Assembly (NCBI GenBank): GCA_023151115.1
Contig: JAKLJP010000010.1
Location: 1-64,000, forward strand
DNA: 64,000 bases
Source: Anaerolineae bacterium
GTDB taxonomy: Bacteria > Chloroflexota > Anaerolineae > 4572-78 > J111
Direction: 5' to 3'
Shown here: positions 1,302-64,000 of the stretch, in pieces
How positions within the stretch are numbered: position 1 is the first letter of the stretch
How the letters are laid out: each line of letters starts with the position of its first letter
The notes under the pieces: model-generated
What the model saw: only the letters and a program-made list of their open reading frames with translations
Told to the model about the DNA's origin: nothing
Databases searched by the model: none
Position numbers and translations under genes: made by a program

Positions 1302-2914
1302 TTCTTGAAGAATAGAATTGTTTCAGAACTGCTGGCATTTTCCTTAAATATATCCCGCGACACCAACATCTCCATTGAAAGCCGCTCCTCCAGCCTTAAC
1401 CCCGCCGCTTCCCCTAAATAAGCTAATAACTTATCGGTCTCAATTTCCACTCTTTGCCCTCCGGCAAGGGTATGATTATTGCCGACGACAACATAGGCCG
1501 GTGCGCCGGGTTTGAGCAGCCGCAAAAAAGTTTGAAATACCTGCTGCATGTCCAAAAAATAGCGAGCCAGTAGCGCCGGCAAGTTGCGCCGCCGGAATCC
1601 CACTTCGGCCTGGCGATTCAGGGTGTCAATGAGGTCTATCACCCTGGTAATCTCAACGGGCAGTTCGGTGCGGCGTTGTTGATACTCTTGCCAATTGAGT
1701 TGGCGTTGGCGTTCGGTAATTTCTCGGTTGCCAATCATTTGATAGTCACGCTGGCGGTGTTGAGGCCGGGAGAGTAACCCTAAATAACATAAACTCAGCC
1801 GGTCGGTATCGAGATAGGGCAGGGCTGTAGCGTAAGGCGGTGAGGTAATAATCGCATCTATTCGCCCTCGTTGGTCCGCCAAGAACTGGTCAGCCTGGCG
1901 AGCGTTACCTTCAATAATGGTCGCCTGTCCAACGGGAAAATCCTGATTTTCGTACAGAAGCGCCAGAATCGTTCTGACCGAGCGATTGAGTTCAGCCAAA
2001 AATTCGGCTATCACATCAATCTCTCTATCTAGCCGAATCTCTTTGCGCACCCGCAGATCATCATCCTTTTGCCAGGAAACTCGTCGCAAAATGTTACTTA
2101 ATGTTACCTGAAACAATAAACGACAAGCCGGATGCTTTACATTTTTTATGTGTACGGCAATAGGGTCAAGCGCAGCTAAAACCTGGGGCGCAAACCAATG
2201 GGATAAGTAAGCTCGATCTTGAGGAGACAAACTCTCAAACCAGGGCAAATCGGCTGATGGAGTAGCCGCGTGATGCAGTTCAACTTTGAGGGATTGATAC
2301 TCTTTAATTAATTCGTCAGGGTGAATGGTCAAACTGGCGCATTTAGCCCGACTCATCAAAACCGAGAGAGGATTCAAATCCAGACCAATAGCACGACAGC
2401 CTAACAACACTGCCTCCGTGGGCGTAGTGCCGCTACCGCACATCGGGTCAAGGATCACTGAAGATGGGCCAGCTCTGACAATATTCAGCAAGGAGCGAAC
2501 CAGTTGAGGAAAAAATTTACCTCGATATTCATGAATACCGTGAGGTCCATAACGCAGATTGCGCCTATTCGGGAGGGGGGCCTCCTTTTGAAAAGGTAGA
2601 ACAGTCTGTAACTGTTCGGGAGTTGTGCCATTTCTGCTTAAATAGGTCGTTGCTTCACGCCGTACTTGACGGGTTGAGTGGCTAACAAAAGGATTCCCGT
2701 CAGGATAAAGTTGTTCCCAATAAGTTAAACGATCAGCCAAATAAGTAGCTGATTGAGTTGTAATTACACGATAAACAAGTGGCTCTCCCAAAATATCAGT
2801 TTCTGGCATAGGTGTAGTGCCAGTCAGAGTTTCCAATTCTTTGAGCGCCAAAACCCTTTCGAAGGGTTGAATATAAGGCTTTAATCGGCAGATAATCTCA
2901 TTACCGATTATCAT
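1292..2914 (-). CDS. Site-specific DNA methyltransferase, m4C type (first of two)
   Basis: The SAM-binding motif I is DPMCGSGTT at residues 156-164 and the catalytic motif IV is SPPY at 358-361. SPPY, rather than DPPY or NPPY, is typical of N4-cytosine methyltransferases. Motif I precedes motif IV with about 195 residues between, unlike the beta-class order of the other methyltransferase in the window (26558-27673). The start codon lies inside the end of the upstream methyltransferase gene (14-bp overlap), so the two are probably translationally coupled. Its 3' end overlaps the convergent nuclease gene. It probably protects one strand of the recognition site cut by that nuclease. Confidence 0.8.
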   Translation of the reverse strand: MIIGNEIICRLKPYIQPFERVLALKELETLTGTTPMPETDILGEPLVYRVITTQSATYLADRLTYWEQLYPDGNPFVSHSTRQVRREATTYLSRNGTTPEQLQTVLPFQKEAPLPNRRNLRYGPHGIHEYRGKFFPQLVRSLLNIVRAGPSSVILDPMCGSGTTPTEAVLLGCRAIGLDLNPLSVLMSRAKCASLTIHPDELIKEYQSLKVELHHAATPSADLPWFESLSPQDRAYLSHWFAPQVLAALDPIAVHIKNVKHPACRLLFQVTLSNILRRVSWQKDDDLRVRKEIRLDREIDVIAEFLAELNRSVRTILALLYENQDFPVGQATIIEGNARQADQFLADQRGRIDAIITSPPYATALPYLDTDRLSLCYLGLLSRPQHRQRDYQMIGNREITERQRQLNWQEYQQRRTELPVEITRVIDLIDTLNRQAEVGFRRRNLPALLARYFLDMQQVFQTFLRLLKPGAPAYVVVGNNHTLAGGQRVEIETDKLLAYLGEAAGLRLEERLSMEMLVSRDIFKENASSSETILFFKNQP

Positions 2915-4334
2915 CGTTCACCTCGCTATTCCTCAAAATAACAATGTGCTCATCTTTGATCTTGCCGATTTTGGGGTTGAAATATTTCTTGGTCGCTTGT
3001 AGTTGACGGTTGATATTGGCTTCTACTTGAAAACCAACCTCCGTCGCAACTTCGCTCAATAGCTCATCGTTCTTAATCGTTTCACCCTTAATAATTGAGT
3101 CGCCAATCACAAAACAGGCATGCCGGTTGGAGCGGAGTTGGCATTTTAACCAGGCTAGAATGGTACACAGTTCCGCCCGGAATGTTTCTACAGTGGCGGC
3201 GTTAACACCTTTGCTGCTGTATTTGCGGTGACTGCCTATCTCTTGGCGTTTAAATTTCGGCTGATCCATCTCAAGCCACAACATGCGGGTGCGGTGATAA
3301 AGATGATAACTGTAGGCATTGGGGTAAGGGGGTGAACAAATCACTAAGTCAACCGGGCCAATTTCAGGGCCATCAAGAATATTGGCTTCATATACTTGCG
3401 TCGTCAATTTAGAATCAATTTCACGGCTAAATTCAAGCGCGTATTGGATAGCTTGGGCTAAAGTACGGCTAAATAGTTGCAGTGTATCTCCCGGTTTGAT
3501 ATTTTTCTCACGGCGTACATAGCGTGTATCTGAGTCCTGCCGCGAAACAGTGACAATAATGGCTGAAAATGCTACCAGGGCCAGTTGACGGGCTGTAACC
3601 TCTGTTAAGGCCAGGCATTTTTCTTTTATAAAAGATAGTTCATCAATGACATGCTCATCAAACCATTCCTCAATTCCTTCAAAGGTGTGGCGGCGGCTTG
3701 CGCCTGGAAAAGCAGGCAGATCAGGAAACAGAGGCAGCCGGCCGATAGAGGTTGCCTGCGCTATCCGCTCGACCTCGACCGCCAGTCCTCGCAAAATTTC
3801 AGCGTCCAATTCGCCAATGCCACCGGCTTTTGCTCGACTAATCAAGCAGGCCAGTGGATTGGCATCCAGCCCAACCGCATTTCGACCTAAACGACGCGCC
3901 TCAACCAGTGTGGTACCGCTGCCACAAAAAGGATCAAGCACTGTCTCTCCAAATGATGACAATTCCTGGATAAGCGCGTTGGGAATTTGGGGAATGAATT
4001 TGGCCGGATAGGGATGCAATGAGTGGGTTAAGTAGCCGGTATTGGTGTTTACAAAATCCCACTCTAGCCTTTCAAGCCTGGGTATCGAGTCCGCATACGG
4101 TAAGCTTAGATCATAAAAAATCAGACTTTCATTTATTTTCTTTGGCGGGACCATCAATGAACCATTAGCATACTGTACAACCTGTTCAGCCTCTTCTGGG
4201 GTAAAGACCCGCCAACCATTGCGATCACGATGAGGTTCGGGCAGGCGGCCTTCACGCAGCCAGCGCAACAGGGTATCTCGATGGACGCCTGCCATTTCTG
4301 CCACTTGATGAGTATTATAGACCACGTATCTCAT
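2901..4334 (-). CDS. DNA methyltransferase (m4C type) with N-terminal MerR-like helix-turn-helix
   Basis: Residues 3-55 form a MerR/excisionase-type helix-turn-helix (THQVAEMAGVHRDTLLRWL, then GWRVFTPEEAEQV). The rest is a methyltransferase with motif I DPFCGSGTT at 134-142 and motif IV SPPY at 334-337, in the same order as in the downstream gene, so the two are paralogues. The chosen ATG at 4334 starts directly before the HTH; a TTG at 4385 would add 17 residues with no domain. A methyltransferase carrying a regulatory-type HTH could repress its own promoter or help site recognition; this is inference. Confidence 0.78.
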   Translation of the reverse strand: MRYVVYNTHQVAEMAGVHRDTLLRWLREGRLPEPHRDRNGWRVFTPEEAEQVVQYANGSLMVPPKKINESLIFYDLSLPYADSIPRLERLEWDFVNTNTGYLTHSLHPYPAKFIPQIPNALIQELSSFGETVLDPFCGSGTTLVEARRLGRNAVGLDANPLACLISRAKAGGIGELDAEILRGLAVEVERIAQATSIGRLPLFPDLPAFPGASRRHTFEGIEEWFDEHVIDELSFIKEKCLALTEVTARQLALVAFSAIIVTVSRQDSDTRYVRREKNIKPGDTLQLFSRTLAQAIQYALEFSREIDSKLTTQVYEANILDGPEIGPVDLVICSPPYPNAYSYHLYHRTRMLWLEMDQPKFKRQEIGSHRKYSSKGVNAATVETFRAELCTILAWLKCQLRSNRHACFVIGDSIIKGETIKNDELLSEVATEVGFQVEANINRQLQATKKYFNPKIGKIKDEHIVILRNSEVNDDNR

Positions 4335-49986: not shown

Positions 49987-50007
49987 CTATTACATAAAAC
50001 GCACTTT

Positions 50008-50104
50008 TTCTCCCTCCGCCGGCATTACCCGGATCAGGTTCATCGGTCCCTCCTACAGCGCCCGGCGCAAAGGAGCATCTCAGCCTGGTTTATCCAAGCC
50101 CCCG
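50008..50104 (-). promoter_or_regulatory. TPP (THI-box) riboswitch
   Basis: Read on the minus strand the conserved parts appear in order: GGCTGAGATGCTCC, then GGGACCGATGAACCTGATC, CGGGTAATGCCGGCGGAGGG. This matches the TPP aptamer including the CUGAGA and ACCUGAUC cores. With the terminator at 49962-49986 it should stop transcription of thiN-thiB-thiP when TPP is high. Confidence 0.96.
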
Positions 50105-50159
50105 AAAACAACGATATAGTTTTTAAGGTAAAAAAATTATACTCCTCAAGCGTTGAAAC

Positions 50160-55167: not shown

Positions 55168-56499
55168 ATGATGATTTCTGAAGCTATCAGTCCAAAAATC
55201 GCTCCCGGCCCGCAGGAATTTCCCGACCTGTGGCAAAATCCGCTGCAAACCCTGGTGGATGCTGCCCGCGACTACGGCGATGTTGTCTGCCTGGACCCAC
55301 ACGAGCGCCGCATCTATCTGGTCACCCACCCTGACCATATCAAGCACGTTTTGCAGGACAATTACCGCAACTATCGCCGCGACGCCGACAGCTTCAAGCT
55401 GCTGGCCGGCAACGGTTTGATTGTCAGCGAGGGTGATTTCTGGCTGCGCCAGCGCCGCCTGATTCAGCCGGCTTTCCACCGCCAGCAAATTGCCGCCCTA
55501 ACGGCCACTATGACGGAAGTGACGGCGGCCATGTTGGAGCGTTGGCAGGCGGCGGCTGAACATGGTGAGCCGCTCGACCTGCTGGCCGAGATGATGAAGC
55601 TAACCTTGACCATCATTGTCAAAACTATGTTCGGCGGCGATGTGACCGAGGAGGTTGAAGCCGCGGCCCATGCTCTGGATGTGGGGCAGGCATATCTCTA
55701 TCAGCAGGGTTGGGATTACGCCGGTGAGCTTGGCGACTCCGGCGAAGTTGAGTTTCGGCAGGCCATGGACACCCTCGACCGGATGGTTTACCGGCTCATT
55801 GACCAGCGCCGCCGCAGCGGGGAAGCGCGCCCGGATTTGCTGTCTATGCTGCTGCAAGCCCGTGATGAAGAGACAGGCGAGGGTATGAGCGAGCAGCAGC
55901 TCCGTGATGAGATTGTGACCATCTTTGGCGCAGGCCGCGACACCACTGCCTTGGGTCTGGCGTGGACCTGGTATCTGCTCGACCAGCACCCGGAGGTGGA
56001 GCGCCACCTGCGGGCTGAGGTGAGCCAGGTTTTGGCGGGACGAGTCCCTACCTTTGCCGACCTACCCCATCTGGCCTATACCCGGCAGGTGTTCGAGGAG
56101 GCATTGCGGCTCTATCCGCCCGGCTGGATGACGGCCCGGCTGTCGTTGGGCGAGGACGAAATCGGCGGCTACCTTATCCCGGCCAACGCCGAAATCTTCC
56201 TCTGCCCTTACGTAACCCACCGTCGCCCCGATTTGTGGGAGCAGCCCGACCGCTTTGACCCGGAGCGTTTTGCCCCGGAACGCTCCGCCGGCCGGCCTCG
56301 TTTTGCCTACTTTCCCTTCGGTGGTGGGCCACGGGTCTGTATCGGCAATACATTTGCGCTGGTCGAGGCGCAGTTGGTGCTAGCCATGGTCACACAGGCT
56401 TACCAGTTGCGGCTGTTCCCCGGCTGTCAGGTCGAGCCGGAAGCATTGATTACCCTGCGGCCAAAGAATCTGTGGATGACGGTGACTCGTGAAGCGTGA
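55168..56499 (+). CDS. Cytochrome P450
   Basis: A full-length soluble P450 of 443 residues. The I-helix oxygen-binding motif is AGRDTT (255-260), the K-helix ExxR is EEALRLYP (about 311-318), and the heme-binding loop is FPFGGGPRVCIG with Cys at 391. The length and the PAFHRQQ segment recall CYP102A/CYP110-like fatty acid or terpene hydroxylases. AAGGAGG precedes ATG 55168. No ferredoxin gene is adjacent. Its nearness to the diterpene genes, 5.4 kb away, is noted but not proof of a link. Its last codons form part of a GTGANNC heptamer repeat. Confidence 0.93.
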   Translation: MMISEAISPKIAPGPQEFPDLWQNPLQTLVDAARDYGDVVCLDPHERRIYLVTHPDHIKHVLQDNYRNYRRDADSFKLLAGNGLIVSEGDFWLRQRRLIQPAFHRQQIAALTATMTEVTAAMLERWQAAAEHGEPLDLLAEMMKLTLTIIVKTMFGGDVTEEVEAAAHALDVGQAYLYQQGWDYAGELGDSGEVEFRQAMDTLDRMVYRLIDQRRRSGEARPDLLSMLLQARDEETGEGMSEQQLRDEIVTIFGAGRDTTALGLAWTWYLLDQHPEVERHLRAEVSQVLAGRVPTFADLPHLAYTRQVFEEALRLYPPGWMTARLSLGEDEIGGYLIPANAEIFLCPYVTHRRPDLWEQPDRFDPERFAPERSAGRPRFAYFPFGGGPRVCIGNTFALVEAQLVLAMVTQAYQLRLFPGCQVEPEALITLRPKNLWMTVTREA

Positions 56500-56673: not shown

Positions 56674-56701
56674 GCGTAAAATGTAATGCGTAATGACTGA
56701 T
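56674..56701. repeat. GCGTAAT heptamers at the GT87 start codon
   Basis: GCGTAAA-ATGTAAT-GCGTAAT-GACTGAT; the ATG at 56693 of the next gene is formed inside. Confidence 0.7.
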
Positions 56702-58168
56702 TATCGAGAAATCATTACGTTTTATGAACATCAAGCATTTGTCTGGTTTATGAATCTGGTCAATTTAATCAACATAACTCATATTCGTCGCCTGTGGCTT
56801 GAATCTAAGGTTTACCGGCGGATTCTGCTGGCGACTTTGATTTACCTGATGGTGCGGCTGGCTTTGCAGGGTGTGGTGCTGGCCCAGGTCTGGTCGGCGG
56901 GGCCGGTGGCTTCGGAAACCACGCTGATTTCGAATGATCTGCAAATCTACATGGCCGCGGCCAATCGGTTGACTAACGGACAGGACCTCTATTTGCAGGA
57001 GGCGCTGGACAAAATTGCCGTTTTTCAATATGCCCCTGCCTTTGCCCTGGTGTTGACGCCGCTCCTGCCGGTTCCATTTGGCCTGCTGGCGGCGCTGTAT
57101 ACTCTGCTCATTATCGGCTGTTATGGGCTGCTCTACCTGTGGTGGGGGCGAATTTTTCGCCGTCTGGGCCTTGACCGGGCCGAGGCGATGCTGGCCTGGA
57201 CTTTGCCGGTCTGGATTGTCTTTGCCGCCTTTTGGGGCGACTTGGCCTATCTCAATGTCTATGTCATCACTGCCTTGTGCTGCACCCTGCTGATCGAAGC
57301 CGTGTTGGATGAGCGGCTGGGCTGGGCGCTGCTGTGGGTGTCGCTGTTATTACCCAGCAAACCCTATCTGGCTTTTCCGTTAGCTCTCCCGCTTATTTTG
57401 GGCCGCTTCCGCTTTTTCTGGAAATTATTGGCCGGAACCGTAGCCATCTACGGCGCGGTAATGGGTCTGACCATCCTGCTGATGGGACCGGCTTACGGCT
57501 GGGCGCAGCACCTGGCCTATCTGCGCTTTCTGGCCGAAATGACCGCCAACTTCCCCTGGCGCACGCCTGAAAGCGGTTTTTTGGGCTACAACCATTCCAT
57601 CCTGCAAATTACCTTCTTCTTGCTGGGGGTGACTCCGGCAGCGCAAGCTCTGGCGACCGGCCTGAAAGTGCTGCTGCTTCTACCCCTGGCCGGGGTGAGC
57701 CTGCGCCATCTGCTCCATTCTACCCATCGCCCCGGCCGAGAGACGCCCCTGCTGAGTCTGGACCTGGCTTTTGCCCTCTGCACCGGCGCTTTTATCTGGC
57801 TGGATATTGTTTGGGAACTGACCCTGGGGGCGGTAATTTTTGCTTATCTGTTGGCCACGCTGACCAGCCGCAGCGCCAAAATTTGGGCCTGGGCCGTTTT
57901 TCTGCCCTATGCCCTGTTAGATGTGTGGCAGGTTATCAGCTTTGTGGCCCTCGGTCCGGCTATTTTGGCCGATGGTTTCTATGTCTGGACCGACCCCAGC
58001 ATCTACCTGCCACTGGTGATGCTGGTCATACTGGTTTTTCATGCGCTGTTGGTCAAGCGGCTGTGGTCTGCCTCTTATGCCAACATCGTGGAACTGACAG
58101 AGAAAATTCCAGACTTTTCCATCTATGCTCCAGTTCAAGCAAGCCAAGACAAACAGGTTGCCTCATGA
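56693..58168 (+). CDS. GT87-like polyprenyl-phosphate-dependent glycosyltransferase (DUF2029)
   Basis: About eleven membrane helices. The first periplasmic loop has SNDLQIYMAAANRLTNGQDL and FQYAPAFALVLTPLLPVPFG, as in DUF2029/GT87 mannosyltransferases, where an Asp in this loop is catalytic. SKPYLAFPLALPLIL is also typical. The sugar and acceptor are unknown. The N-terminus starts in a repeat, so the first 30 residues are uncertain. The next gene overlaps by 4 bp (ATGA), so the two act together. Confidence 0.78.
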   Translation: MTDYREIITFYEHQAFVWFMNLVNLINITHIRRLWLESKVYRRILLATLIYLMVRLALQGVVLAQVWSAGPVASETTLISNDLQIYMAAANRLTNGQDLYLQEALDKIAVFQYAPAFALVLTPLLPVPFGLLAALYTLLIIGCYGLLYLWWGRIFRRLGLDRAEAMLAWTLPVWIVFAAFWGDLAYLNVYVITALCCTLLIEAVLDERLGWALLWVSLLLPSKPYLAFPLALPLILGRFRFFWKLLAGTVAIYGAVMGLTILLMGPAYGWAQHLAYLRFLAEMTANFPWRTPESGFLGYNHSILQITFFLLGVTPAAQALATGLKVLLLLPLAGVSLRHLLHSTHRPGRETPLLSLDLAFALCTGAFIWLDIVWELTLGAVIFAYLLATLTSRSAKIWAWAVFLPYALLDVWQVISFVALGPAILADGFYVWTDPSIYLPLVMLVILVFHALLVKRLWSASYANIVELTEKIPDFSIYAPVQASQDKQVAS

Positions 58169-59736
58169 ATCTCAATCCGATACCCTTTAAAGGTCTGGCT
58201 GTTACCAACTCTCAAGCCGGGGTGAGCCTTTCCCGGTTTGAGTTTCTACTGGGCCTGTGGGTCATCTGGCGGCTGCCGCTGTTGCTGGCGCTGCTTTATT
58301 TTTTTGCGCCGGATGAATTTATCTGGCTGGCGACGATTATCGCGATTCACCTGGTTGGGACGCTGCCGGAAAGATTGGTCTTTTTTCTGGTGATTGCCCT
58401 GGCATTGGGTGGATGCTTTGTTTTAGCGCAGCGGCTGCCAGCCCGGCGATGGCGTTTCCTGCTGCCCTTTGTGTTTGCTTTTGGTTTATTTTGGGGTCTG
58501 TTTCAACTTGTGCCGGGTCTGCCGCCCCTTATCGCCGCCCTCTTGCTGACAGGTGTTTTGGCTATTAATACTATTTCAACGCCTGAGCTGGTCAACTTCA
58601 TGTCTAATAAACCGGGCCGGCTGATAGCCAATTTTATCTTTGGATTTGCCGTTGGCCTGTCCGAACTGCTGCTGCTGAAACCTTTGGTTCTGTGGCTGTT
58701 CCGGCTTCAACAGACCTCAAAAGTCTTTAAGACCTTTGAGGTCTTCACAGGTTATGTCCTTGTGCCCGGATTAGCTGCCTTACTATTAGACCCCTACAGT
58801 TTGAGCGATTTCCACCGGACGCTCTGGCCCGACCCGGCCGTTCAGCTTTTGGCCCGCGAGAATTATAGTTGGACCGAGCTGGATGTGGAGCGCCGGGTGT
58901 TGTACGCCAGCGGTTATGGGACAAATTATCTACATGCGTTTGACCTTGATAAGCCAGACCAACCGCCCCGCCTCTCGCCGGTAGAAAATGGATATGCTCA
59001 AGGGTTTGCTTACAACCCCGTCGAGCAGGAAATCTATCTTTATAATGTCCTGACCTACCACCTGCTGACTCTGGACGCGGCCAGCCTGGAACTAAAAAAG
59101 TCGGAGGCGACCAAATCACTGTCGCCGGGGGATGTCTGGATCGCCTGGGATCCATTCTCCGACAGGCTGGTTATTGCTTCTGAGGCTGATGAGCAGGTGG
59201 GCGTCCCGACCATCATCGTTGACCGGCCAACAGGCCAACTTCGGGCTGAATTGAACCTTGACCCCGGCAACATCGCCCTGCATCCCAGCCGCCCCTGGCT
59301 GTATATGAGCTTTTTGCGGCGGGTCAATGAGTTGATAGTCTACGATCTAGAGCAGCAGCGTATCATCAAACGCACCTCAGTCCCGGAGCGGTTGGACCGT
59401 TTGATTTTTGCGCCGGGGGAACAAGGTATAGAATTGTTTGCGTCGGCCCCGCTGAACTCGACCGTGCTGCGCTTTGACGCGGAGACGTTGGAGCGCAAAG
59501 ACAGCCTCAAAACGCTTTTTGGGGGGCGGGCCATCGCCGTGGATACAAGCCGCAACTGGCTGCTCTGCGGCAGTTTGGTGACACACCAGCTTGAGGTGAT
59601 TGACCTGACCACCGGGCAGCGGGTCGCCGCCTATTATCTTGGTCCGTGGCTGCGGACTATTGTTCTTGACAGCCGGGCCGGGGTGGCTTATGTTTCTTCG
59701 CATGGGGGGCTTTTTGCCGTGCAGTACGCCGAATGA
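58165..59736 (+). CDS. Membrane protein with C-terminal beta-propeller
   Basis: Residues 1-215 hold six to seven membrane helices. The C-terminal 300 residues are a beta-propeller of YVTN/WD-like blades (RVLYASGYGTNYLHAFDLDK, IYLYNVLTYHLLTLDAASLE, LIVYDLEQQRIIKRTSVPER, LEVIDLTTGQRVAAYYLGPW). It is coupled to the GT87-like gene and followed after 18 bp by the histidine kinase gene, so it may be an extracytoplasmic binding module of a glycan or signal pathway. No enzyme motif seen. Confidence 0.72.
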   Translation: MNLNPIPFKGLAVTNSQAGVSLSRFEFLLGLWVIWRLPLLLALLYFFAPDEFIWLATIIAIHLVGTLPERLVFFLVIALALGGCFVLAQRLPARRWRFLLPFVFAFGLFWGLFQLVPGLPPLIAALLLTGVLAINTISTPELVNFMSNKPGRLIANFIFGFAVGLSELLLLKPLVLWLFRLQQTSKVFKTFEVFTGYVLVPGLAALLLDPYSLSDFHRTLWPDPAVQLLARENYSWTELDVERRVLYASGYGTNYLHAFDLDKPDQPPRLSPVENGYAQGFAYNPVEQEIYLYNVLTYHLLTLDAASLELKKSEATKSLSPGDVWIAWDPFSDRLVIASEADEQVGVPTIIVDRPTGQLRAELNLDPGNIALHPSRPWLYMSFLRRVNELIVYDLEQQRIIKRTSVPERLDRLIFAPGEQGIELFASAPLNSTVLRFDAETLERKDSLKTLFGGRAIAVDTSRNWLLCGSLVTHQLEVIDLTTGQRVAAYYLGPWLRTIVLDSRAGVAYVSSHGGLFAVQYAE

Positions 59737-59754
59737 TCGGAGAGGTTGAAATTT

Positions 59755-61491
59755 ATGAAACTTGCTAAAATTTTTAAATCGGAGAGGCCGAACAAAAGGG
59801 TGACACTCACCGAAGATAAACGGAAGGGCGAAATTTTTAGCTATTTTGTCGGGGCTATCTGGGGGGTTACGATTTTTGATTTGCTTTACAACCTCTATGT
59901 TCTGTGGGGCGTTGGCGACCATGATGCGCAAGAGTACGCCGGTTATATTTCCATCGAGATTATCCTGGTAGTGATGTTGGGATTGATTTGGGGCGGGCAT
60001 CGCTGGTATCCGCACCTGGCGCGTCATCTGTTTCTGTTATTGGTGGTAATGGGCGCTACTTTTACTTTCAACGCAACCGATATTGAAATCATTTTTGTGG
60101 GTATGACCGTGCCCATTATTATGGCTGCCTTTTTGATTAAACCCATTTACAGTTATGTATATTGGGGTGCGATTACAGGCGCTTATATCTTAAATCTGTA
60201 CTTGTTGAACGCCCTAAGCCCCGAAAAGGTATTTTTCGCCGGCCTTATTTCACTGCTGGTCATTGCCGGGGTTTCGTGGCTGATTGCTCAATCATTGGAT
60301 AAGGCCCTGGCCGAAGCGCGGGCGCTGAATGAGGAACTTGACCAGCGGGTGAAAGACCGGACCCAAAAATTGGCCGAGGCCCTGGAGCGAGAACGCGCTA
60401 CCGCCGTTCGCAATGAAACCATTTTGGAGGCTATTGCCGACGGGGTATTGGTTTTTGACGCCCACCAGCAGGTAATGGTAACCAACCCGGCGGCCAATCA
60501 GTTAGCCAACCGGAGTCTGCAAGCTTTAAACTTATCCGAAATTTTAGCCAATGTCGAAGACAAGGCGCGGGAAATCATCCATAGCTGGATGGGAGGGCAG
60601 AAACCAACCGATCAGAACAATGTTAAATTCGAGTGGCAGGATCGCACCATTTCGGCTACCATTGCCCCGGTAATCTTGCCGGCAGTTGACGGCAGGCAGG
60701 TTGACGCCGGTAATGTGATGGTTTTAAGAGATTTTACCAAAGAGGCAGAGCTGGAGCGGGCCAAATCTTTCTTTTTGGGCATGGTTAGCCATGAGTTGAG
60801 AACCCCCATGACCGCCATCAAGGGTTATGTAAAAGTTCTGCTGGATTCGGAAAAAGAGAATTTATCGGCCACAGGGTACGAGCATCTACAAACCATTGAT
60901 GTCAGCATCAAGCAGTTGCTCACCCTGGCCAACGAATTGATTGACCTCTCCCGGTTAGAAGCTGGTGAAATCGAACTGTACCCGGAATGGGTGGATTTAA
61001 CGGTTATCATCAAACAGGCCGTCAAAATGGTCCAACAGGAGTTTACCAACCGCCACCTGAGCCTCGAAGTCAGGCTGCCCGATCATTTACCCCGGCTTTA
61101 CCTGGATAAAAATCGAATGTTGCAAGTGCTATTAAATTTGTTGAGCAATGCTTATAAATATACAGCTCAAGGTGGAGCGACAATAGAAGTAACCTATTCG
61201 GGCGATTGGGTCAATATTGCCGTAGCCGATACCGGCGTGGGTATAAAACCGGCAGATCAGGCCCATCTGTTTAGCCGCTTCTTTAGAGCCAATGATCAAC
61301 TGGTCCAAAAGGCAGGAGGCACCGGCCTGGGGTTGAGCATAACCAAAGGCTTAACCGAACTTCACGGTGGGCAGTTAACCTTTACCAGCCAGTATGGCCA
61401 CGGTACCACCTTCCAGGTCGCTTTGCCCGCACACACTTTGCCAGCCGTAGAGGCTGAGCCTCTTGAAACTCAAACTTCTTTGCGCGTATAA
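59755..61491 (+). CDS. Membrane histidine kinase (PAS, HisKA, HATPase)
   Basis: Six membrane helices (about 25-180) are followed by a coiled coil, a PAS-like domain (about 220-330), HisKA with the phospho-acceptor His in MVSHELRTPM (about 346) and HATPase with N-box LLNLLSNAYKYTAQGG, G1 VADTGVGIKP and G2 GGTGLGLSITKGL. It should phosphorylate the response regulator encoded 31 bp downstream. A TTG at 59746 is an alternative start; ATG 59755 is preferred. Confidence 0.92.
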   Translation: MKLAKIFKSERPNKRVTLTEDKRKGEIFSYFVGAIWGVTIFDLLYNLYVLWGVGDHDAQEYAGYISIEIILVVMLGLIWGGHRWYPHLARHLFLLLVVMGATFTFNATDIEIIFVGMTVPIIMAAFLIKPIYSYVYWGAITGAYILNLYLLNALSPEKVFFAGLISLLVIAGVSWLIAQSLDKALAEARALNEELDQRVKDRTQKLAEALERERATAVRNETILEAIADGVLVFDAHQQVMVTNPAANQLANRSLQALNLSEILANVEDKAREIIHSWMGGQKPTDQNNVKFEWQDRTISATIAPVILPAVDGRQVDAGNVMVLRDFTKEAELERAKSFFLGMVSHELRTPMTAIKGYVKVLLDSEKENLSATGYEHLQTIDVSIKQLLTLANELIDLSRLEAGEIELYPEWVDLTVIIKQAVKMVQQEFTNRHLSLEVRLPDHLPRLYLDKNRMLQVLLNLLSNAYKYTAQGGATIEVTYSGDWVNIAVADTGVGIKPADQAHLFSRFFRANDQLVQKAGGTGLGLSITKGLTELHGGQLTFTSQYGHGTTFQVALPAHTLPAVEAEPLETQTSLRV

Positions 61492-61522
61492 AATTTAGCA
61501 ATTACCCAAAGGAAAATTTTCA

Positions 61523-61933
61523 ATGCACATCCTCTTAGTTGAAGACAACCATACGTTAGCTGCCCTCTTTGGGGTACAGTTACGGCAGTTGAAGCATACT
61601 TTGACGATTGCCGCCACCAAAGAAGCAGCCATCACTGCATTTCAAAAGGAAGTTTTTGATTTGATCTTCGTTGATATGGGGTTGGAGGGATACCAGGACC
61701 GCGGGCTGCAAATTTTAGCCGAGATAAAGACGCTGGCCCCGCAACAGCGAATGGGGGTCTTATCTTCAAACGATTTGCGTGATATAGTCCGGCTCAGCCA
61801 GCAGTATGGCGCTGAGTTTTACATGGTCAAACCATTTACCCTTGACGGCCTGGCCCTGATTCTCAGTGGAGATAAAGAAGCAATCCGCAACTATATCCCC
61901 GATGTGGACGAAGGCCGTATTATCGCTTTCTGA
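61523..61933 (+). CDS. Single-domain response regulator
   Basis: A 136-residue receiver domain with acidic pair ED (7-8), phospho-acceptor D51 (LIFVDMGLEG), Thr/Ser replaced near SSNDL and Lys in MVKPF. It has no DNA-binding domain, so it must act by protein contact or as a phosphorelay link. The last 43 bp overlap the 3' end of the convergent diterpene cyclase gene. Confidence 0.9.
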   Translation: MHILLVEDNHTLAALFGVQLRQLKHTLTIAATKEAAITAFQKEVFDLIFVDMGLEGYQDRGLQILAEIKTLAPQQRMGVLSSNDLRDIVRLSQQYGAEFYMVKPFTLDGLALILSGDKEAIRNYIPDVDEGRIIAF

Positions 61934-63471
61934 GCTAGAGGTTCGGCCCGTAACTTTTGCAAGGATAGGTGGGTCAAGTCGGTAATCAAACGCGGCCGCC
62001 GGGTCGGTTTGACCATACTTTTATATTTGTCCAATGCCGACAGCACCACTGACTCGACAATGTGGTATGGGTTGTAAAGGCACTTGTGGATCCACAAGGA
62101 GGGTAGGGCTTCAGCCGTAGTGTAATGTGTTTCCAGGTAACGGATGCCTCGTTCGATGACGCTGAGAGAGATGTCGCCTTTCTTTTCCCGGACGGCCATC
62201 AGGGCTAACAGAGCATAAGCCGTCTCTTCGATTGCCGCGCCGGGCAGGTTGGGGTAGAAGGTCCAGCTACCGTCAGCCCGCTGGGTTTTAAGCAGCCAGG
62301 CGATTTGCTTGGGGATAATTCTATCTGATAACCCGGTTAAACCAATAATCGCATGCGAAGTGCTGTAATAAGGCGATGTATGCCATTTGTCCACAATATA
62401 TTCGGTGGTCAGGTCGCGGCCTAGGATATTCAAAGCCTTTAGCAGCATTTCATCGCGGCGCGGAAAATCGGGGGCAGTTTTCAAGGCGTGGATAATGTGG
62501 ATATGGGCATCCAGCGACAAATTTCGTTCAAACGGCATGCACTCAAAGTGATCTCCCACTTCATACACTTCTAAAACTGCCGGGTCTTTATAAATACCCA
62601 ATTTATTAAAAATCCGCAGTGCTACCGAAGAGTCGTCCGGGTCGGCCACAAAAGTGGTCGAAAAGCCAACCCCGCGTTCAGTCCAGGCTTGACTGAGCGT
62701 GTCAAGCAGAGGATGGATGACCGGCTCCAACGTCGGCAAATCAACCGTCAAACTGAGGTGGTGCAGCGTCCAGATAATCTCAAAGAGTTCAAACGGTGCG
62801 AAACTGGGCGCGTACCCCCCGTACCGCTCGATCAAATCATCCAGGTAAGCCCAGCCTTCCAACGAACCACCCCCGGCAATTTCCACAAAAGCTGTAGCTG
62901 CCGGTGAATTGTGAATGCTGCCGTTGGCTGTCCTCAAAGGGGGAATGGCCGCACGGTCGAGTTCCTCAAAACTCAAAAATTCCAGCGAATGAGCCACAGC
63001 CAGGTGGGGCGAATAAATCATGGCTTTTGGAATCAGGGCCAGCTTTTGATGATACAGCGGCAGTTGCGGTTCAATCAGGGTTTCGACCCGATCAAGTTTT
63101 AAGCCTAAAGCCTGGCCCGTTTTAACCAGGCGGGGCAAGATTAATTCAAAGCCGATGGTCTCAAATACATCTTGGCTTAATAGGGGAATGGCCCTTTCCA
63201 GGTAGCGAATACCTTTTTCGATCTGCTTCAATTCGTGGACATTCCCCGACGTGGCGGCGATGGCATTAATCGCCGCCAAAGTGGAGATGACCCGGTCGTG
63301 GTAATATTCCAATTCAGCGCCCCAACTGCCGTCGGGGTGTTGGGCAGCCAGAAGCCAGCCCCGCGCTTGTGGGTAAAGCCAGGCCAGCCAGGCCGTATCA
63401 TACGCAGAGGGCGATAGATAGTTGGGGTTGTGTTGCATCCGGTGCAACAACTCGATCAATCGTTGGGTCAT
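61891..63471 (-). CDS. Class II diterpene cyclase (Rv3377c/copalyl diphosphate synthase-like)
   Basis: Protonation-initiated cyclase that turns geranylgeranyl diphosphate into a bicyclic diterpenyl diphosphate. The catalytic DxDD is DPDD at residues 277-280 (FVADPDDSSVALR). The N-terminal SPSAYDTAWLAWL and GSWG QW-type motifs, and IEETAYALLALMA and WIHKCLYNPY near the end, are diagnostic of bacterial beta-gamma type II cyclases. At 526 residues it matches Rv3377c and the Herpetosiphon kolavenyl diphosphate synthase in size. Skeleton and stereochemistry cannot be told by eye. It overlaps the upstream diterpene synthase gene by 4 bp. Confidence 0.9.
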   Translation of the reverse strand: MTQRLIELLHRMQHNPNYLSPSAYDTAWLAWLYPQARGWLLAAQHPDGSWGAELEYYHDRVISTLAAINAIAATSGNVHELKQIEKGIRYLERAIPLLSQDVFETIGFELILPRLVKTGQALGLKLDRVETLIEPQLPLYHQKLALIPKAMIYSPHLAVAHSLEFLSFEELDRAAIPPLRTANGSIHNSPAATAFVEIAGGGSLEGWAYLDDLIERYGGYAPSFAPFELFEIIWTLHHLSLTVDLPTLEPVIHPLLDTLSQAWTERGVGFSTTFVADPDDSSVALRIFNKLGIYKDPAVLEVYEVGDHFECMPFERNLSLDAHIHIIHALKTAPDFPRRDEMLLKALNILGRDLTTEYIVDKWHTSPYYSTSHAIIGLTGLSDRIIPKQIAWLLKTQRADGSWTFYPNLPGAAIEETAYALLALMAVREKKGDISLSVIERGIRYLETHYTTAEALPSLWIHKCLYNPYHIVESVVLSALDKYKSMVKPTRRPRLITDLTHLSLQKLRAEPLAQKAIIRPSSTSGI

Positions 63472-64000
63472 AGCGCTATCCAGCCTTTCTCAGTTCGTTG
63501 GCCAATTCCTAAAATTTCAACCTTTCTCCAGGCTTCGGCTGTCAAATCATCGTAAAGTTTATCATCGTTGATGCGTTGATAAAGACAGTCAAACAAAATT
63601 TGGCGCAGCGCCTCCCGGTTTAAGCAAAAGGTGGGCGCTTGCAAGAAATAAAGATTAGCTTTGTTGATATTTAAGAGTGGTAAATCCCAAATGACCGGCT
63701 GGCCAGAGCCAATAATGAGGTCTACGGGCCCAACCGGCTGGCCGTAATAGCCTGCTAACAACGCTTCTCCCTGGTTGACGCGCCGGGCCAGGTTGACAAT
63801 ATTATCCAGTCCCTCATCGGCAAAGACCCCCAATAATAATTTTCGCCGGGTATAACTACTTGTTTCGGCCACCAATTTCGACAACTCGGCCGCCTGACTA
63901 AAGTTAAACTCGGTCAGGATATTGAACCAGTTGCCGTAAAAAGTTACCCGGATTTCTTCCCGATGATACCACTCTCGATAAACCGGTTGGGTCAGTTCGC
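63468..64000 (-). CDS. Diterpene synthase with cis-prenyltransferase fold (Rv3378c/kolavelool synthase-like), cut by window edge
   Basis: About 176 C-terminal residues are visible; the 5' end lies beyond 64000. Reading in frame through a TTG at 63884 shows further coding sequence (REEIRVTFYGNWFN and LLLGVFADEGLDNIV). Recalled Rv3378c landmarks occur in the same order: VxFYG, GVF, GYYG, DLPLL, LYFxxAP, LRxILxDxxYxR, and a final GVG/GIG...GW segment. Rv3378c is a tuberculosinol synthase with the (Z)-prenyl synthase fold that hydrolyses the product of Rv3377c. ATGA overlap with the cyclase gene shows coupling. A plain undecaprenyl diphosphate synthase is less likely because its RxSGxxRLSNF motif is missing. 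Confidence 0.85.
   Translation of the reverse strand, partial: ELTQPVYREWYHREEIRVTFYGNWFNILTEFNFSQAAELSKLVAETSSYTRRKLLLGVFADEGLDNIVNLARRVNQGEALLAGYYGQPVGPVDLIIGSGQPVIWDLPLLNINKANLYFLQAPTFCLNREALRQILFDCLYQRINDDKLYDDLTAEAWRKVEILGIGQRTEKGWIAL

Follow-up and report, generated by a model that had tools for sequence, protein, structure and literature searches.

The window analysed here is a stretch of 64,000 nucleotides from an Anaerolineae bacterium (assembly GCA_023151115.1, contig JAKLJP010000010.1, positions 1 to 64,000), and at its right-hand edge it holds a pair of genes which almost certainly belongs to the Rv3377c/Rv3378c-type family of diterpene enzymes. The pair consists of a class II cyclase and a class I synthase, next to which a sensor histidine kinase and a response regulator are encoded. 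The features of the pair are the following:

61891-63471, minus strand: class II diterpene cyclase (Rv3377c-like), 526 amino acids, ATG start
63468 to beyond 64000, minus strand: class I synthase with the Rv3378c (cis-prenyltransferase) fold, 5' end outside the window
63468-63471, minus strand: ATGA stop/start overlap between synthase and cyclase
62632-62643, minus strand: DPDD (DxDD) proton-donor motif, cyclase residues 277-280
62086-62088, minus strand: codon of cyclase His462, aligned to Rv3377c Ala475 and Tpn2 Gly485

The synthase is visible over 176 of approximately 272 amino acids, i.e. about 96 N-terminal residues are absent, as judged by the 272-residue relatives P0001 and L001. Residues 17-480 of the cyclase matched the structure of Rv3377c (6vpt) at E 2e-63, and 1135 cyclase homologues were found among 8000 scored candidates. 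The visible part of the synthase matched Rv3378c at E 1e-16, and the full-length profile of its family (A1) did so at E 6.7e-47; NCBIfam and Pfam searches were uninformative for this protein. A first-pass annotation, made from the nucleotide letters alone, had described a DPDD cyclase and a cis-prenyltransferase-fold synthase with a 4-bp ATGA overlap and had regarded the second protein as Rv3378c-like, both of which agree with these results. A grouping of the synthase with undecaprenyl diphosphate synthases (UPPS), which the same annotation had raised as the competing outcome, was examined as well. The fold search with the full-length relative P0001 gave Rv3378c as nearest structure, and profile A1 had no UPPS chain among its matches up to E 0.1. 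The UPPS identity was rejected on these grounds, and it is highly improbable that the synthase is a cis-prenyltransferase of the UPPS kind or a homologue devoid of catalytic activity.

The enzyme pair is of an already known kind; some homologues are named tuberculosinol/isotuberculosinol synthase or diterpene synthase in databases. From this family membership, the production of a diterpenoid from geranylgeranyl diphosphate (GGPP) is predicted with high confidence. The cyclase would protonate GGPP and form a bicyclic diterpenyl diphosphate, from which the synthase, probably carrying an Asn in its active site, would either remove the diphosphate to release a diterpene alcohol or transfer the diterpenyl group to an acceptor.

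The family of related synthases is large. Profile A1 matched 23 of 400 Chloroflexota genomes, which were split by score and tree into 14 genomes of groups A and B and 9 Herpetosiphon-like genomes; the Fisher tests given below use the 14, and the 9 are counted among the other 386. Group A, which contains the window, its relatives L001 and L002, G604 and many metagenome proteins, is fully supported in the synthase tree (100/100), group B as a unit has weak support (80/47), and the third group is Herpetosiphon-like. The first of these trees included 11 of the 29 A1 rows and a denser one 40 of 120 listed homologues. Group B-type synthases are numerous (1522 homologues among 7998 scored), and among the best 120 of these 1522 all 10 with an organism name are Anaerolineales or Chloroflexi assemblies.

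The signalling genes lie on the opposite strand and converge on the cyclase:

59746-61491, plus strand: sensor histidine kinase with a six-helix membrane domain, a weak PAS domain, HisKA and HATPase
59746-60297, plus strand: six-helix membrane sensor domain of this kinase
61523-61933, plus strand: single-domain response regulator, 136 amino acids, Pfam Response_reg, receiver only

The 3' end of the cyclase gene overlaps the convergent regulator gene by 43 bp, and receiver genes are found near the pair in many relatives. A kinase resembling that of the window (>100 bits) occurs within 703 bp of the synthase locus at 27 of 32 Chloroflexota loci, a set which leaves out the synthase places of G105, G362 and G064 (Herpetosiphon-like). 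A matching kinase is missing from L047, L048 and L057, the last being a fragment of 2 kb, and from two divergent paralogues, L074 and L075. There are 134 HisKA genes in 9.0 Mb (G001), 43 in 3.8 Mb (G123) and 68 in 6.8 Mb (G113), and across the six genomes counted a HisKA gene occurs every 67-105 kb; from this density the chance of finding any kinase so close is approximately 0.07-0.11. Moreover, the membrane domain of the window kinase alone was found in 21 of the 27 matching kinases (BLAST, E 6e-12 or better), and of the remaining six, five are kinases of the Herpetosiphon type and one is a truncated gene.

The distribution of this sensor domain was followed with a profile of the membrane domain alone (A4, 19 sequences), which was run on the 400 Chloroflexota genomes. 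At a threshold of 1e-10, 20 genomes were positive, namely all 14 synthase genomes of groups A and B and 6 of the 386 others. In each of these 14 genomes the best sensor copy is the one at the diterpene locus, and the sensor is present as a single copy in 11 of the 14 as well as in six of eight further genomes whose locus carries it. G014 and G400, which are absent from the A4 profile, are both sensor-positive (3.7e-4 vs 6/386). The rarity of the sensor elsewhere and its single-copy state are features which the construction of A4 does not build in. A structural model of the six-helix sensor reached a predicted local distance difference test (pLDDT) score of 86.5; it found no match in the PDB at E 0.001, and the domain found none in NCBIfam. 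In this arrangement, the convergent kinase and receiver would form a dedicated two-component system, and it is likely that both are functionally coupled to the pair.

Coupling can be understood in different ways. The pathway could be an ordinary one for an alcohol of the tuberculosinol or kolavelool type, in which the two-component system sets the timing of expression or senses something unrelated. Such an explanation would fit the hydrolysis of the allylic diphosphate which the available part of PMC8131916 describes for tuberculosinol and kolavelool synthases, and orphan copies of the sensor exist. However, the receiver showed no DNA-binding domain, and the sensor domain keeps its place at the locus through varied gene orders, lying even between the cyclase and synthase genes of L066 and L067. 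Furthermore, the sensor near the synthase of G014 does not sit on a kinase but on a STAS-domain protein. We therefore regard the ordinary pathway as unlikely. On contig C36 of G014, a cyclase gene (1049-2443) is located approximately 160 bp from another sensor copy (2607-3116) and forms a further pairing of cyclase and sensor. In the preferred reading, the six-helix sensor would respond to the diterpenoid itself or to a change which it causes in the membrane. The genomic coupling is a direct observation, and a sensor which reads the diterpenoid product is suggested tentatively, at somewhat below an even chance. More tentative still is the wider proposal that a self-made diterpenoid serves as a membrane-borne signal in Chloroflexota, which is read by the six-helix receptor in its kinase- or STAS-fused form, and that the tuberculosis lineage acquired the synthetic half alone for another use. 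If it is true that the kinase reads the product, the locus would represent a diterpenoid signalling system. The literature searched, which included few subscription papers, contained nothing joining diterpene, terpene synthase, histidine kinase and Chloroflexota; the same search, which did not cover the kolavelool paper, found nothing joining Rv3378c with Chloroflexi or tuberculosinol with Chloroflexota.

The product may belong to the halimane, the clerodane or the labdane class, and the active sites of both enzymes were compared with those of relatives. Rv3378c shows the motif DGTRRW and the family of the window synthase NGTRRW, the difference being located at Asp34, which we take to be essential in Rv3378c. 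Asn was found at this position in all 189 listed homologues showing the motif (200 inspected) and in L001 and L002 as well. These 189 comprise 120 of 120 proteins (the best 120 of 1522) and 69 of 80 of a second listing, though the profiles used as queries were themselves largely of the Asn type, and the 120 do not include a mycobacterial protein of the Asp type; in the remaining 11 of the 80, all of 224 amino acids or less, the motif was not found. The protein P0075 of M. shinjukuense, which belongs to the 69, reads NATRRW. The corresponding codon of the window synthase is situated beyond the window edge, and its Asn is predicted from these relatives. Among the group B genome loci, Asn is present in 14 of 15 with data and Lys in G603. 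The residue is Gly, Ser or Ala in the Herpetosiphon-like group, and Asp in the mycobacterial orthologue as well as in a pair of divergent paralogues. These paralogues, L074 (G075) and L075 (G014), display DGSRR/DGNRR motifs, and neither a cyclase nor a kinase was detected nearby. The Asp/Asn difference poses a concrete question on how the enzyme changed.

A nucleoside or another acceptor might also receive the diterpenyl group from the synthase, in the way that Rv3378c uses adenosine, and the product would then be a terpene nucleoside or a conjugate of that kind. In the accessible part of PMC11476799, Rv3378c is presented as the tuberculosinyl transferase making 1-tuberculosinyladenosine (1-TbAd). 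The positions of Rv3378c Tyr51 and Tyr90 are conserved in A1, where Tyr47 is invariant and Tyr86 reaches at least 90% (both outside the visible part of the synthase), and some group B homologues are automatically named 'adenosine tuberculosinyltransferase'. Against this stand the Asn of the listed motif-bearing relatives, where Rv3378c has Asp34, and the alcohol made by the Herpetosiphon relative (PMC8131916, as far as its available text goes). Acceptor coupling thus appears rather improbable.

On the cyclase side, Tyr466 occupies the position of Rv3377c Tyr479, and His462 stands where the halimane-forming Rv3377c has Ala475, a non-basic residue. The exchange of Gly485 to Asp at the aligned position of Tpn2 switches a clerodane to a labdane product (PMC9814783, in its available part). 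By analogy with this switch, a labdane product of the window cyclase might be considered possible, albeit on a weak basis; the Tpn2 result shows that the position matters, without telling which product follows.

The same family bears on the origin of the mycobacterial locus. The mycobacterial genome G430 (locus L046) encodes the orthologues of Rv3378c (1.2e-144 over 295 residues) and Rv3377c (4.5e-259). Its cyclase is sister to that of Chloroflexota genome G021 (100/97, and 100/98 in a second tree) and is 51.2% identical to the latter, vs 28.1% to Rhizobium and Mesorhizobium plasmid cyclases. In these comparisons the two rhizobial plasmid cyclases stand in for the proposed plasmid source. Trees of the cyclase and of both genes combined place the mycobacterial locus within Chloroflexota. 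An inner group B without G430 was rejected for the cyclase (approximately unbiased (AU) test, p 0.0058) and for the combined data of the two genes (p 0.017; 0.0019 when G773 was included), with the qualification that the constraint groups were picked after the trees had been seen. The cyclase tree was calculated without the long-branched G625 cyclase, and the AU tests of the cyclase and of the joined genes also without the M. shinjukuense cyclase. Trees of the synthase alone support the mycobacterial nesting by bootstrap (90/92; 99/93 with denser sampling).

According to the available part of PMC11476799, an initial search for Rv3377c/Rv3378c orthologues outside mycobacteria failed, with which the large Chloroflexota family contrasts, and a plant-associated plasmid source was inferred there from nucleotide composition. 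This composition is the argument for the view that mycobacteria were the source of the Chloroflexota genes, or that both were derived from plant-associated plasmids. In contrast, one clade of the L046 cyclase and the two rhizobial plasmid cyclases was rejected (p 1.2e-9), the L046 synthase found no match better than E 3 in 72,556 plasmids, and the nesting of L046 inside group B points the other way. The plasmid origin was rejected on the first two results, and both versions of the alternative are scarcely credible. The cyclase results hence speak against the published plant-plasmid origin, and the placement of the mycobacterial cyclase makes the question of origin directly testable. A Chloroflexota-like source of the mycobacterial pair is well favoured, and the group B Chloroflexota look like the best source found for the locus of the tuberculosis-lineage mycobacteria.

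Three further genes lie to the left of the kinase:

55168-56499, plus strand: cytochrome P450 (PF00067), possible accessory enzyme
56693-58168, plus strand: GT87-like membrane protein (PF09594, 20.0 bits), possible polyprenyl-phosphate-sugar glycosyltransferase
58165-59736, plus strand: protein with membrane and repeat parts, unmatched in Pfam and conserved in both L001 and L002

The GT87-like protein, which may glycosylate the diterpenoid product, was found at E 1e-20 in four of the 400 genomes (G001, G075, G335 and G400), all of them synthase-positive. This corresponds to 4/14 genomes of groups A and B vs 0/386 others (p 9.5e-7) or, without the sister genome G001, to 3/13 (p 2.7e-5). The gene is at the locus in three of the four and on another contig in G335. 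The window copy is 41-44% identical to GT87 proteins within three other diterpene clusters; the 44% identical homologue in M. shinjukuense (L037) is encoded between cyclase and synthase.

Taking these lines together, we lean towards the reading that the window contains a Chloroflexota diterpenoid module beside a dedicated membrane sensor, with group B as the source of the mycobacterial locus. Several observations weigh against it. The Fisher value for the link between sensor and synthase (1.6e-21) is inflated, since copies from these loci went into the construction of profile A4, among them the window's own and those from 11 of the 14 genomes. Related genomes are not independent in such counts, and absences in the 400-genome searches are soft, because at most six (synthase), eight (sensor) or three (GT87) candidates were scored per genome. 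G049, G235 and G395 have strong sensor matches (1.7e-41 or better) without synthase or cyclase. The matches in G201, G233 and G291 are weak (5.7e-13 at best); in all six genomes no cyclase was detectable, and the stretches around these sensor copies showed neither cyclase nor synthase. The sensor was found in none of four mycobacterial genomes, and Herpetosiphon aurantiacus has kinases at its locus with no copy of the sensor, one weak match being situated elsewhere (3.3e-7). An Asn in place of Asp34 could alter the activity of the synthase or abolish it. A mycobacterial protein outside group B was not rejected by the AU tests on the synthase by itself (p 0.148 and 0.166; 0.132 and 0.191). Finally, the score of the window's GT87-like protein is under the Pfam cut-off of 25 bits, which the homologues in L037 and L044 pass.

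A comparison with the known systems shows what is shared and what is particular to the window. The Rv3377c/Rv3378c locus, as seen through L046, resembles the window in both enzyme families, in the gene overlap and in the order of synthase followed by cyclase, an order shared with most group B loci. In contrast, the mycobacterial cyclase carries DCDT instead of DPDD, the synthase Asp34 instead of the Asn of the window's relatives, and the mycobacterial loci L046 and L037 include DXS, LytB and GGPP synthase, where the window has kinase, receiver and GT87-like protein. The O-methylkolavelool cluster of Herpetosiphon aurantiacus (Haur_2145; L038) also combines a class II cyclase and an Rv3378c-like synthase with kinases and receivers nearby. 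However, its cyclase is followed by the synthase and then by a methyltransferase, the reverse of the window order, and this methyltransferase had no match in L001 or L002. Moreover, the synthase has Gly at the Asp34 position, the cyclase is 26.9% identical to that of the window, and the cluster lacks a copy of the window's sensor. Of the earlier statement that the pair is the two-gene core of tuberculosinol and kolavelool formation, the assignment to these families stands, and the Asn at the Asp34 position and the reversed Herpetosiphon order had been overlooked. Group B loci such as L040, L043 and L051 are also close to the window and share the synthase-cyclase order, the kinase with the same sensor domain, the receiver and Asn in the synthase. 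Their kinase genes are co-directional with the pair, whereas they are convergent in the window, and in loci L039-L044 a membrane methyltransferase of the ICMT type lies at the start of the synthase gene, often with a FemAB/GNAT-like protein upstream. M. shinjukuense (L037) has a group A synthase 50% identical to that of the window, together with a cyclase of a different branch; the sensor was not found at this locus.

Regarding the extent of the cluster, the sister genome L001 (Anaerolineales metagenome-assembled genome H5_CFX5), which is 94.9% identical at the nucleotide level over 59738-64000, gives a probable view of the sequence past the window edge. The genes of the pair run leftward, and the region to the right of the window is therefore upstream of them. 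In L001, about 0.6 kb without a long gene precedes the synthase, and the next long gene is a DeoC/LacD-type aldolase; because of this, synthase and cyclase look like a two-gene unit. Queries for GGPP synthase, the ICMT-type and Herpetosiphon methyltransferases, DXS and LytB had no blastp match in L001 or L002 (20.8 kb each, with partial annotation). The window itself contains no GGPP synthase, ICMT-type methyltransferase or FemAB-like gene (blastp with cluster queries, 1e-4), and DXS and LytB were equally unmatched there. An operon continuing rightward was thus rejected, and the methyltransferase and GGPP synthase genes expected there by the first-pass annotation did not appear, as far as the sister genomes show. 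On the left flank, L002 keeps the GT87-like, membrane/repeat, kinase and receiver genes on the plus strand, not the P450 gene, which is present in L001. The annotation had treated the genes between P450 and pair as unrelated, a description that has to be revised, since kinase, receiver and GT87-like genes accompany the pair in other genomes. A search for inverted repeats between the convergent cyclase and regulator genes led nowhere.

In Mycobacterium, 4 of 198 genomes matched the synthase profile: two have group A copies (M. simulans and M. shinjukuense G506), one the Rv3378c orthologue (G430), and in the fourth (G465, L034) the group A copy is broken by a stop codon. The nesting of the M. 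shinjukuense and M. simulans copies within group A was not significant (p 0.43). The M. shinjukuense locus is a mosaic, in which a group A synthase is combined with a cyclase placed beside a Streptomyces olivoreticuli plasmid cyclase (100/99). In M. simulans (L003, 743-2826), a GGPP synthase gene overlaps the group A synthase gene, and no cyclase of the Rv3377c-like family was detected in the genome, which leaves the synthase an orphan. Two mycobacterial loci and one of Chloroflexota (L037, 8188-8790; L003, 2876-3463; L049, 7957-8529) encode a membrane protein of 191-201 residues close to the synthase, which shows a faint likeness to the sensor domain (hhalign probability 49%). Outside these groups, a myxobacterial cyclase from Cystobacter fuscus (P0152) is 53% identical to the window cyclase. 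Further to the left in the window, a thiamine pyrophosphate (TPP) riboswitch at 49994-50115 on the minus strand is the sole Rfam match at the gathering threshold.

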